DNA of 64,000 bases, taken from positions 3,906,001 to 3,970,000 of the forward strand of contig NZ_CP054690.1 in NCBI RefSeq assembly GCF_013348805.1, in the 5' to 3' direction. The notes beneath the pieces are model-generated. The model saw nothing but the letters and a program-made list of their open reading frames with translations. It searched no databases and was not told where the DNA came from. The position numbers and the translations under genes are program-made. The DNA is from Rhodococcus sp. W8901 (GTDB taxonomy: Bacteria > Actinomycetota > Actinomycetes > Mycobacteriales > Mycobacteriaceae). This document shows, piece by piece, positions 4,827-21,865 of this stretch; within the stretch, counting starts at the first letter, position 1; each line of letters opens with the position of its first letter.

Positions 4827-6077
4827 CTAGGCGGCCGGCCCGGCCGGGGTGCCGGCCACAACCGGGACACTCCCCGGAATATGGGCCCGGACCTCGAATC
4901 CCCCGCCGTCGAGTGCGCGGGTGTCGAGTGTGCCGCCGACGGCGCGGGCACGATCCCGCATGCCGGCGATCCCACTGCCACCCGACGACTCGGGACGCGG
5001 TTCGGCTCCCACCGCGGGACCGTTCGTCACGACGAGCGACGTGACGGCGGGCGAGAAGTCGACGACGACCTCCACGTGCGCGCCCGGACAGTGCCGACTG
5101 GCATTGGCCAGCGACTCCTGCAGGATCCGGTACACCGTCAGCCCCGTCGTCTCGGAGATCGCGGACGGCTCCCCGGAGATGCTGCGCGACAGCGACATAC
5201 CGGCACGGACGCTGCCGTCGAGCAGTTCCTCGATCTGCGCGACGCCGGGCTGCGGGGCCCGCTCGGTGGTGTCCCCGTCGCTGCGCAGCACGCCGAGCAG
5301 GCCACGGATCTCGTTGAGCGCCTCCCGCGCGGTGGCACCGATGGATTCGAACTCCGCCCTCGCCTCGTCGGACACCGAGTCCAGCCGATACGGCGCGCTC
5401 TGCGCCTGCACCACGACCATCGACATGTGGTGGGCGACGACGTCGTGCAGGTCACGGGCGATCCGCGCCTTCTCCTCGAGGATCGCGCGGCGGGCTCGTT
5501 CGAGTTCGCTGGTCTGCTCCTGGGCGGCGAGCTGGCGCCGCGAGATCACCAGCCAGCGGATCAGCAGCCCGAACAGCACGAGGACCGTGAGACCCACCGC
5601 CCAGCCGCGCCCGTCCTGGCCCGGCGTGTCGGCGAGGAAGAGCAGCGTCGTCGCGCCCCACGCGACCGCGACCACCGGGATCGGCGACCGCAGGCTCACC
5701 GCCAGCAGCAGCGCCATCAGCACCATCACGTGGACCACCTGCCACGGGAAGTCGTAGTCGTCGGCGCGCTGGTACACCACCGGGATCACCAGCGCGCCCG
5801 CCGCCGAGATGGCCCATCCCAGCGCCGGATTAGCCCGGATCAGCAGGAGCGGCAGCGCGGCGAGCCCTCCGATCAGCGGCTGCACGCCGGCGGGCACATG
5901 GTGCGTCACGTGGAGCGTGGGCCACGCGATCGCGTACAGCACCGCGGTCACGAACAGCACCACCAGGTCCAATCGCTGCCCCGTGCTCATCCGCTTCAGG
6001 CGCGGGGCCGCGGCCGAGACCGCGCCCTGTGCCGCACGGTCGAGTGCACGATTTCGTTTCCTCACACCCGGAAACAC
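4827..6077 (-). CDS. DesK-type membrane sensor histidine kinase
   Basis: 416 residues. Four to six hydrophobic segments lie within residues 35-178, followed by a short coiled linker and the HisKA_3 dimerisation domain, whose ARIARDLHDVVAHH motif carries phospho-His H211. The HATPase domain has a SGGSGIAGMRDRA glycine box near the C-terminus. There is no periplasmic sensor, GAF or PAS domain, so the stimulus is probably felt in or near the membrane. Translation may begin at the ATG of codon 1 or at the internal ATG of codon 30 (MSTGQRLD), just before the first helix. It forms a two-gene operon with the regulator and is transcribed away from the secreted phospholipase-like gene. Confidence 0.9.
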   Translation of the reverse strand: MFPGVRKRNRALDRAAQGAVSAAAPRLKRMSTGQRLDLVVLFVTAVLYAIAWPTLHVTHHVPAGVQPLIGGLAALPLLLIRANPALGWAISAAGALVIPVVYQRADDYDFPWQVVHVMVLMALLLAVSLRSPIPVVAVAWGATTLLFLADTPGQDGRGWAVGLTVLVLFGLLIRWLVISRRQLAAQEQTSELERARRAILEEKARIARDLHDVVAHHMSMVVVQAQSAPYRLDSVSDEARAEFESIGATAREALNEIRGLLGVLRSDGDTTERAPQPGVAQIEELLDGSVRAGMSLSRSISGEPSAISETTGLTVYRILQESLANASRHCPGAHVEVVVDFSPAVTSLVVTNGPAVGAEPRPESSGGSGIAGMRDRARAVGGTLDTRALDGGGFEVRAHIPGSVPVVAGTPAGPAA

Positions 6078-19389: not shown

Positions 19390-20238
19390 TCACGCAGCAC
19401 GTGCGCGACGACGACCTTCCAGACGCGCAAGGATGCGGTCCGCGCCCACCGCAGCGCCGCGGCGGACCTCGCATTCACACCGCTCGGCCAGCTCCCGACG
19501 GTCGCGGCCCGGGGCCTGCAGCGCCCCCAGCGTCACCCGGGCCCGCAGGCCGCGACTCCTGAGCACCCGGCGCATCGAGGCTCCGATCGAGTCGTCGCCC
19601 ACGAAGCACGGCCCGGTCGTGTGCGCCCCCGCCGCGTCGACATACTCCACCAGCACCGGCTGGACGGGCCGCTGCGCGTCGACCGCGGCCTGGAACAGCG
19701 CCGGCCGGAACCGACCGAACGCCCGACCACACCACGTGGTCCCCTCCGGAAAGACGATCACCGTGTCCCCCGCGAGCAGCCGATCCCGCGCGGTGGCGAC
19801 CGTGTCCGGCAGGCCGCGCAGGTTGCCCCGCTCGATGGGGATCACCCCGGCCCGCCGGGCCACGCCACCGAGCAGCGGCCAGGTCAGCAGGTCGGCGCGG
19901 GCGACGAACCGACCCGGCAGCACCGCCGCGAGCACCAGGACGTCGAGCCACGAGACGTGCCCGGCCACCACGAGCGTCCCGCCGGGCACTCGGGCCGGCG
20001 ATGCGGACACGTCGATCCGGATACCGATGCCGCGCAGTGCTGTTCGCGCGAACATTCGATGGCATGCCACCCGCGGCTGCCGCGGGAGCAGTCGCACGAT
20101 CGGCAGCAGCACCGACGCCGACGCCACCGCCACCAGCGCGATCCAGCGGCCGCACGCGAGCGCGACCGGGACCCGCTCGGGGCGCCGCGGCAGGCAACCG
20201 TCGCCGCACGGGCTCGTCGGCAGCCACGAATGACTCAT
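19390..20238 (-). CDS. 1-acyl-glycerol-3-phosphate acyltransferase (PlsC-like)
   Basis: 282 residues. One or two hydrophobic segments near 28-50 are followed by the acyltransferase domain with HVSWLD (the H-x4-D catalytic motif), the substrate-binding FPEGTTW and a late VQPVLVEY. It transfers a fatty acyl group to a lysophospholipid-type acceptor at the membrane. The start is ATG 20238, which overlaps the stop of the upstream GNAT-like gene (ATGA). The same pair (Rv3026c/Rv3027c) is recalled in M. tuberculosis. Resembles the OlsA half of an OlsBA system, but ornithine lipid formation is only an inference. Confidence 0.85.
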   Translation of the reverse strand: MSHSWLPTSPCGDGCLPRRPERVPVALACGRWIALVAVASASVLLPIVRLLPRQPRVACHRMFARTALRGIGIRIDVSASPARVPGGTLVVAGHVSWLDVLVLAAVLPGRFVARADLLTWPLLGGVARRAGVIPIERGNLRGLPDTVATARDRLLAGDTVIVFPEGTTWCGRAFGRFRPALFQAAVDAQRPVQPVLVEYVDAAGAHTTGPCFVGDDSIGASMRRVLRSRGLRARVTLGALQAPGRDRRELAERCECEVRRGAAVGADRILARLEGRRRARAA

Positions 20239-21065
20239 GCCGCGGCCTCGATCACCGCCGACGCGCGCCGCAACCGCTCGAGGTAGCGGGTGTCGGCGTC
20301 GTGCAGGCTCTGCAGGGCCACGAAGTCGGCGACACCGAAGTCCGGGTCGTGCGCGGGTTCGCCGCAGATCTTCGCGCCCAGCCGCAGGTAGCCACGCAGC
20401 AGCGGCGGCACCGACGGCCGCAGCGGCGCGGCGATGTCGTCGAGGGGACGGCCGTCCACCCGGACCGGACGCAGCGGTCGCGCCCACGTCGACGGATCGG
20501 CGGCGTGGCGGCTCAGCAGGAAATCGCGCACGCCGCGCACGTTCGCACCGGCAACCGCGTCGGGGCGGTCCTGCATCGGCACCGACACACAGCCCATGAC
20601 GGTGTCGTGGCCGGTGAGCTGCAGGTAGTGCAGGATCCCCGCCCACATCAGTGCCAGGACCGAGCCCGAGCGGTGGTCGACGTCCACACAGGCCCGTCCC
20701 ATCTCGACGACCCGCCGTCTCGCAGGGTCGAGCGCCGACAGGTCGAACTCGGTCGCGGTGTAGTAGCCCCCGGCCGCGACCGCGGCGTCGGGCGGCAGCA
20801 TCCGATAGCAGCCGACGAAGTCACCGGAGACGTTGTCGCGGACGAGGAGATGGTCACAGAAGTCGTCGAACCGATCGGCATCGATCCGCTCGGCAGACGG
20901 GGGGAGGACGAAGCCGGGTTCGGCGGCGAACACGCGGTAGCGCAGGCGCTGCGCCGCCTCACGATGCTCGCGGTCGGAGGAGACGAGGAGGGAGTAGCGG
21001 GATCTGGTGGTCCCTGAAGTCACGGGCGCGGTGTAGACGGTCTCGACGAGTGGCGAAGTTGTCAT
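20235..21065 (-). CDS. GNAT-fold acyltransferase (OlsB-like)
   Basis: 276 residues. Matches the Acetyltransf_5 group, which includes ornithine-acyl-ACP N-acyltransferase: REAAQRLRYRVFAAEPGF near the N-terminus, CDHLLVRD, VVEMGRACVDVDHRSG in the core and a loop with MGCVSVPM. These transfer a 3-hydroxyacyl chain onto an amine. It is coupled by a four-base overlap to the PlsC-like gene downstream, so the two may carry out successive acylations of one lipid. The product is not proven; a polyamine or amino-acid acyltransferase cannot be excluded. Confidence 0.75.
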   Translation of the reverse strand: MTTSPLVETVYTAPVTSGTTRSRYSLLVSSDREHREAAQRLRYRVFAAEPGFVLPPSAERIDADRFDDFCDHLLVRDNVSGDFVGCYRMLPPDAAVAAGGYYTATEFDLSALDPARRRVVEMGRACVDVDHRSGSVLALMWAGILHYLQLTGHDTVMGCVSVPMQDRPDAVAGANVRGVRDFLLSRHAADPSTWARPLRPVRVDGRPLDDIAAPLRPSVPPLLRGYLRLGAKICGEPAHDPDFGVADFVALQSLHDADTRYLERLRRASAVIEAAA

Positions 21066-21146
21066 GCCAGAGGTCTATCGAGCCCGTCCGGCGACGAGGC
21101 ATCAGCCGCATGTCGACGGGATGCCGGTTCGGTGAACGTCACTGCC

Positions 21147-21204
21147 GCGCGCGAATTGACGCCCCGCGCGCACGATTGCACGCGCGGGAGACGAATTCGC
21201 GCGC
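21147..21204. repeat. 58-bp palindromic repeat, copy 1
   Basis: Nested inverted repeat. The outer arms are GCGCGCGAATT and AATTCGCGCGC; the inner arms CCCGCGCG and CGCGCGGG surround a short loop. The six bases between outer and inner arm differ on the two sides (GACGCC versus the complement of GAGACG), so an internal loop is expected. It is 56/58 identical to the copy at 21808-21865 and in the same orientation, flanking the decayed AbiEi/DUF559 gene. Confidence 0.85.
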
Positions 21205-21210
21205 GCGGCG

Positions 21211-21240
21211 GCTGTGGACAACGTCGGAGTTGTCCACAGC
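21211..21240. repeat. inverted repeat of DnaA-box-like sites upstream of the decayed gene
   Basis: Perfect 12-bp arms GCTGTGGACAAC and GTTGTCCACAGC with a 6-base spacer. Each arm contains TTGTCCACA, which matches the high-GC form of the DnaA box, in opposite orientations. It ends 50 bases before the ATG at 21291. Either an operator, a hairpin in the transcript leader, or a protein-binding site. Confidence 0.7.
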
Positions 21241-21290
21241 AGCGCGAACAGGCGTCGCGCATCGCATCTGCGACGTCGAAGATCGAGGCC

Positions 21291-21820
21291 ATGACCGAGC
21301 CTGCACCTCGAACACTGAGACGACGCGATGCGCTCTCCCGAGGCTTCACCGACGCCGAGATCCGCACGCTCTGCCGAAACGGAGGTCTGCGCAGGCTCCG
21401 TCCGGGCACATACCTGAGCGCAGTAGCCGATGCCTCGATGGACCCCGCGCAGCGACACCGCGAACTGATCCGGGCGACGCTACCGGGACTGAATCCCGAC
21501 GCCGTCGTCAGTCACCAGTCCGCCGCGGTGCTGCACGGCCTGTCATTGTGGGACATCCCACTCGACCGCGTATACGTCACGCGGAACCGGACGGGAGGTG
21601 GACGGCGCACCCGGCACTTCGCCCAGGCCAGGATGCCGGCGATGCCGTGTTCGCAGAAAAGCAACGTGAGGACAGGATCCGCGACGCCGGCTGGGAGGTC
21701 GCGCGGTGGACGTGGCGAGACCTCGACCGTCCGGACGTGATCGGAGCGAGAGTTCGTCGATCGATGCAGCGGCGCGACGACCGGCCCCGCCCCCTGGGCG
21801 CGGTGCTGCGCGCGAATTGA
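21291..21820 (+). pseudogene. decayed AbiEi/DUF559-type (Vsr-like) gene with internal deletion
   Basis: The first about 107 codons (from ATG 21291) encode an AbiEi-type N-terminal winged helix: RRRDALSRGFTDAEIRTL, then LRRLRPGTYLS, and VVSHQSAAVLHGL. Near 21610-21640 homology stops. The family's C-terminal signature EKQREDRIRDAGWEVARWTW (from about 21655) resumes in another reading frame and ends at TGA 21818-21820. Intact relatives are about 280-310 residues; the middle of the nuclease-like domain is missing, so an internal out-of-frame deletion is inferred. Relatives are linked to type IV toxin-antitoxin or Vsr-like endonuclease folds. The stop codon lies inside repeat copy 2. Confidence 0.75.
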
Positions 21821-21865
21821 CGCCCCGCGCGCACGATTGCGCGCGCGGGAGACGAATCCGCGCGC
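21808..21865. repeat. 58-bp palindromic repeat, copy 2
   Basis: Second, directly oriented copy of the nested palindrome at 21147-21204, with two base differences: G for A in the central loop edge and C for T in the right AATT. It overlaps the final codons of the decayed gene. The copies are 661 bp apart, start to start. Confidence 0.85.

Follow-up and report, generated by a model that had tools for sequence, protein, structure and literature searches.

What looks like an undescribed partnership between an AbiEi-type nuclease gene and spreading palindromic repeats in actinobacteria

Introduction

Why should a broken nuclease-like gene of Rhodococcus sp. W8901 be enclosed by two nearly identical palindromes? 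The question is raised by a locus beside etfA in a 64-kb stretch of the chromosome (64,000 nt; NZ_CP054690.1, positions 3,906,001 to 3,970,000), called the window here, for which an original prediction had suggested a mobile element. Comparison with other actinobacteria suggests that a nuclease and DNA repeats that spread are partners here, in what seems to be an undescribed system. As judged from sequence, two palindromes enclose the gene in many genomes, and the palindrome sequence varies between genes on a shared plan of four half-sites. The cognate palindromes also stand alone at intergenic sites, and the positions that were examined differ between species. We consider it fairly probable that the unit consists of an AbiEi-type/Vsr-EDxHD-type nuclease gene and its own 60-78 bp quasi-palindromes, in a REPIN/RAYT-like partnership built on an unrelated fold.

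Palindromes and gene at the etfA locus

The features of the locus are listed below in window positions.

21143-21204, plus strand: palindrome copy 1, a nested dyad of 62 bp
21208-21243: region with an inverted pair of DnaA-box-like 9-mers (21213-21221, minus strand; 21230-21238, plus strand)
21291-21620, plus strand: remnant of the gene start with the AbiEi-type domain, matching residues 1-110 of an intact orthologue
21581-21817, plus strand: remnant of the gene end with the Vsr/I-Bth0305I-like nuclease part, matching residues 242-320 of the intact orthologue in another frame
21804-21865, plus strand: palindrome copy 2, 62 bp, oriented as copy 1 and containing the stop codon of the gene
21818-21820, plus strand: stop codon of the broken gene, inside palindrome copy 2

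The gene is on the plus strand and its middle is missing, and the start and end remnants are out of frame with each other. The two palindromes are 95% identical over 62 bp. Both fold into an outer and an inner stem with an internal loop between them, and the consensus fold of 37 copies has an outer stem of 13 bp, a 5x5 internal loop and an inner stem of 9 bp. These results bear out the claims that a broken gene, AbiEi-like at its start and Vsr-like at its tail, lies between two copies of one orientation, that the second copy holds its stop codon, and that the repeat forms two nested stems with an internal loop.

Fourteen genomes of the genus (the Prescottella group), that of the window included, were compared, and all of them have etfA. 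Seven (G001, G002, G007, G008, G009, G010 and G012) carry an intact gene of about 320 codons beside etfA, between two palindromes of the same orientation about 1.09 kb apart, and the stop codon falls within copy 2 in all seven. A broken gene between two palindromes is found in two genomes, that of the window, where the middle is lost, and G006, where residues 205-320 alone were found. At etfA, G004 has a single palindrome and no gene, G003 and G005 have merely 10-13 bp similar to the edge of the repeat (judged by eye), and G011 and G013 gave no match to the repeat or the gene. The window locus is probably a decayed form of a two-part unit, an AbiEi-nuclease gene with its own palindrome family. 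To judge from these alignments, the gene behaves as a chromosomal and mostly vertical gene at the etfA locus. Further units close to this gene family stand away from etfA in G007 (C1:199 kb) and G006 (C1:4,067 kb), and both have a flanking pair of their own.

The two copies within a genome are 92-97% identical in five of the nine genomes with a pair and 78-83% in the other four; between-genome means are 73-88%. In three of the nine (G007, G010 and G012) the within-genome identity exceeds every between-genome comparison, whereas in the window genome and G002 copy 2 is nearer to another genome's copy 2 (95%) than to its own copy 1 (92%). Homogenisation of the copies is therefore clear in some lineages only.

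The number of palindromes was compared with the state of the gene by a covariance model built from the 37 copies. With 150 candidates scored per genome, the counts are lower bounds, and the rows amount to about twice the sites. Matches were found in 12 of the 14 genomes, and G011 and G013 gave 0 and 0 rows among the candidates scored. In the eight genomes that have an intact gene of 70% or higher identity to P0001, the rows number at least 23, 29, 15, 31, 16, 8, 16 and 22; G006 is counted among them, its intact gene sitting elsewhere than etfA. The four without such a gene, the window genome, G003, G004 and G005, have at least 10, 12, 10 and 8. The difference between the eight and the four has a one-sided P = 0.02, uncorrected for relatedness. 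The repeat is scarce in the 5.71-Mb chromosome of the window genome, where BLAST found it at four places and the 10 or more rows count both strands. A repeat scattered at random in hundreds of copies unlinked to the gene, which would have refuted the original prediction, was looked for in this genome and not seen.

Several other repeats and homologues were noticed in the genus. In several congeners (L198-L200, L202 and L203) a second, more distant AbiEi-nuclease family is located some 24 kb away from the gene at etfA. The window genome has only fragments of its gene (G000:C1:3903114-3903739, some 2.3 kb ahead of the window start), and the loci of relatives carry GCCGCTCC-type palindromes. On contig 45 of G012, two near-identical palindromes of the same orientation (L046:2743-2806 and 5359-5422) stand 2.6 kb apart and enclose an apparent toxin-antitoxin pair (by eye) and a 478-aa open reading frame; the repeated sequence there reaches past the palindrome.

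Pairing in other actinobacteria

Named genomes gave 190 homologues, of which we used 80 (Rhodococcus, Prescottella, Nocardia, Pseudonocardia, Geodermatophilaceae and others). The upstream flank was set against the downstream one at 79 of these loci, the remaining locus having one flank too short, with a pair-score threshold of 45. This score was reached at 42 of the 79 loci and in 0 of 303 control windows shifted along them. Gapless dyads with a score of at least 14 were seen upstream at 32 and downstream at 26 of the 80 loci, compared with 2 of 152 controls; the upstream set includes some short hairpins of different kinds. Altogether 61 of the 80 loci have a pair or a long dyad. Palindrome sequences diverge widely between genes below about 60% protein identity, and the pairing recurs in several actinobacterial families with unrelated palindrome sequences. 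The claim that palindromes and nuclease-like genes go together is thus strongly supported far outside the window. A separate observation concerns L173 of Pseudonocardia endophytica, where the nuclease gene is flanked at either end by long inverted arrays of GCCGCACC-type palindromes, with a pair score of 471.

A shared palindrome plan

The palindromes follow a common plan, a dyad of mostly 60-78 bp with one short motif twice per arm, which gives four half-sites per element, two per arm and inverted between the arms. Spacing was tested on dyads that score at least 11 and span at least 54 nt, and both flanks of a locus may count. The best internal offset was 19 or 20 bp in 61 of 75 dyads vs. 160 of 1500 shuffles, and 14 or more of 18 positions matched in 64% of dyads vs. 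4% of shuffles.

In an alignment of 45 copies from Nocardia colli, 44 cells were changed on both sides of a pair (shuffled mean 27.0; 0 of 500 shuffles reached 44), and the number of pairs with any such change, 9 vs. 7.9 in shuffles, was unremarkable (131 of 500). In these copies CGCAC varies little or not at all at both the inner and the outer half-sites. The constancy of the outer half-site is partly by construction, because the cores were picked by their starting letters, CGCA, CGGA or CGCG (46 picked, one unrelated dyad dropped).

Solitary copies

Dispersal was searched for four palindromes, those of Prescottella, N. colli, R. rhodnii and Pseudonocardia. The palindrome of the N. colli locus L110 gave at least 84 rows in its own genome, or at least 42 sites, with 40 of 92 candidates scored. 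The 36 regions fetched contain 48 BLAST matches, some of them partial, and the gene was present in just one region, between its two palindrome copies. By a crude codon-position test, 2 of 45 N. colli cores overlapped a called coding sequence vs. 533 of 900 70-mers drawn at random from these regions. A crude gene caller assigned both neighbours at 22 sites, of which 15 lie between convergent, 6 between tandem and 1 between divergent genes; 21 further sites are outside this count. Across 13 Nocardia genomes the same palindrome gave 31 rows in N. ninae, 6 and 2 in two others and none in nine. The R. rhodnii palindrome was matched at 16 places (32 rows) in its own genome, whereas 10 further Rhodococcus genomes gave no rows. 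The Pseudonocardia palindrome was scarce, with rows in three of six genomes and 11 at most (40 candidates scored per genome).

Many single palindromes follow stop codons, and this intergenic placement would suit ordinary GC-rich gene-end hairpins, either terminators or mRNA-stabilising elements, that are homogenised by recombination between the two copies; such recombination would also give the three genomes whose copies are more alike than any across genomes. However, terminators would not be expected to show an internal spacing of 19-20 bp, a tie to one gene family or a copy ahead of the gene, and we hold this explanation to be very improbable.

The chief rival is that the palindrome is an operator bound by the AbiEi domain, the other copies being a regulon or remnants of chance recombination, because AbiEi proteins bind inverted repeats in their own promoters. 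In PMC7319586, AbiEi and Rv2827c are described as binding 23-bp inverted repeats there, with two pairs for Rv2827c. The upstream palindrome often starts about 130-200 bp ahead of the gene, and four half-sites fit a multimeric binder. However, an operator leaves unexplained the second full copy at the end of the gene, with the stop codon inside it at every intact etfA locus, as well as the 42 or more N. colli copies, many of them between convergent genes, and the fused nuclease. We think an operator alone unlikely, and a role as operator may hold alongside a role in spreading.

Presence and absence of single copies were compared directly. A solitary palindrome of G007 (L011) has no counterpart at its intergenic position in the window genome, G011 or G013; in the other genomes this position holds other sequence or is not comparable. 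One N. colli site is missing in G048, G050 and G051, and a second in G015 (the other three being not comparable there); the exact ends of these two sites are unreadable because the intergenic DNA has diverged, though the adjacent genes are conserved. Among congeneric loci that were fetched, some palindrome positions are common to several species and others were found in one. The suggestion of a mobile element is partly supported: the palindromes differ in position between species, as would suit a mobile repeat, and the gene behaves as a mostly vertical one at etfA, apart from the extra units in two congeners.

Two further N. colli observations concern other palindromic sequence. L272:36-105 is a dyad of the same plan and different sequence, so that this species may hold several palindrome families. 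At L270:750-860, partial palindrome arms are repeated next to a full copy, which suggests slippage or repeated partial copying.

Predicted protein

The model of the intact protein matches an AbiEi fold and an I-Bth0305I/Vsr-like nuclease fold, in a listing that is compatible with other folds too, and we assign to it a predicted AbiEi domain and a predicted Vsr-like catalytic fold. E199, D232, E243 and D245 are invariant among the homologues and are candidates for part of the EDxHD motif, whose histidine was not identified. An H-x-H is present in some homologues and not conserved, its second histidine being near-invariant and its first missing in L099 and L110. The DUF559 model (PF04480) of Pfam matched 1 of 34 homologues, weakly (E = 0.06).

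Unlike EDxHD homing endonucleases (I-Bth0305I) and Vsr, this nuclease is linked to a dispersed non-coding palindrome and has an AbiEi-like DNA-binding part. A further difference from these enzymes is the lack of any match to a phage record in the search made. It differs from AbiEi antitoxins of type IV toxin-antitoxin systems in the fused nuclease domain and in the second palindrome after the gene. In addition, the window gene has a GNAT-family gene on its left and etfA on its right, both on the minus strand, with no AbiEii toxin adjacent. The GNAT gene (20235-21065) adjoins the element and has weak similarity to FeeM and autoinducer synthases.

DnaA boxes upstream of the genes

The 64-kb window contains exactly two copies of TTRTCCACA, the DnaA box of actinobacteria (0.18 expected), which are inverted and lie between copy 1 and the gene. 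Over the 80 loci (686,172 bp) the word occurs 45 times, 44 times within 200 bp upstream of the matched gene start and once elsewhere. It stands just upstream of the gene in 36 loci, 43 occurrences falling at -140 to -61. The reversed word occurs 0 times upstream and twice elsewhere. In an unbiased count of upstream 8-mers, pieces of TTGTCCACAG and TTATCCACAG rank top. Flanks of single N. colli palindromes contain TTRTCCACA in 0 of 60 windows. TTGTCCACA is a high-affinity DnaA box of M. tuberculosis and S. coelicolor in the list given by PMC4285127.

Discussion

How would such a partnership work? The AbiEi domain, as a multimer, would recognise the four half-sites, and the nuclease would nick or cut at or beside the palindrome, whether as duplex, cruciform or hairpin. 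Host repair would copy the palindrome into new intergenic sites. As with RAYT genes and REPINs, the palindromes would spread and the gene would for the most part be inherited vertically. A DnaA box near the promoter may couple expression or activity to replication. In the window genome the middle of the gene is lost, and its two palindromes and few other copies are left.

A number of results weigh against this partnership. The pair threshold was missed by 37 of 79 loci, and 19 of 80 have neither a pair nor a long dyad. The correlation between palindrome and protein is weak (r = 0.22, 49 loci), and phylogeny alone may explain it. Covariation in the Prescottella set is also weak, with 7 pairs changed on both sides vs. 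5.8 in shuffles (146 of 500). The stretch gained at the solitary G007 site exceeds the length of the palindrome, and no clear target-site duplication was found at the palindrome sites compared. Of the 80 loci, 44 lack the DnaA box, 12 of the 14 Nocardia loci among them, and the box shows no association with the flanking pair (Fisher P = 0.82). In G009 the gene is intact, yet the covariance model gave few rows (at least 8). G003 (79% complete), G004 and G005 have palindromes without the cognate gene; another agent may have spread the palindromes there, or the gene may have been lost. These last genomes would suit MITE- or REP-like repeats moved by another transposase, with the nuclease gene as a passenger between two of them. 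Against a passenger stand the recurrence of the pairing in several actinobacterial families and the differences in palindrome between homologues of one genome: G007 has three homologues each with its own flanking pair, two of these pairs having the outer motif CCGCTCC in common, and a fourth with an upstream dyad of another type only. We regard a passenger gene as quite unlikely.

The partnership of nuclease and palindromes, which we favour, resembles that of REPINs and RAYTs. In the REPIN-RAYT system (REPtron, or TnpA_REP with REP/BIME), as described in PMC3116915 and PMC8266576, a vertical gene, mostly in single copy, is accompanied by a palindrome type of its own whose copies are dispersed between genes. 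As far as these sources go, the likeness covers a chromosomal gene beside its own palindrome type, intergenic dispersal, distinct pairs per genome and a mostly vertical gene, and the genes here are flanked, as RAYT genes are, by copies of the genome's own dispersed palindromes. The differences are in the palindromes, here 60-78 bp with four half-sites; in copy number, up to tens here and hundreds or thousands for REPs in E. coli and Pseudomonas (PMC8266576); and in the enzyme, which is an HUH tyrosine transposase in REPIN-RAYT and has a predicted AbiEi plus Vsr/I-Bth0305I fold here.

In those sources (PMC3116915, PMC8266576) dispersed REP/REPIN palindromes are tied to HUH transposases, the RAYTs; the same signs of partnership are seen here with a different, predicted nuclease fold in several actinobacterial groups. 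Dozens of testable gene-palindrome pairs are natural material on how an AbiEi-type domain reads DNA, and they bear on whether a plain nuclease with host repair can spread a repeat. The DnaA box before many of these genes raises the question of a link to replication. We put forward tentatively, as possible but doubtful, that a protein of homing-endonuclease fold with an AbiEi part recognises and spreads a non-coding four-site palindrome by cutting and host repair, with no strand transfer of its own and with its expression or action timed in many lineages by DnaA at the box next to the palindrome. If true, REPIN-like repeats would have had an origin of their own in actinobacteria, through such cutting and repair with DnaA timing.
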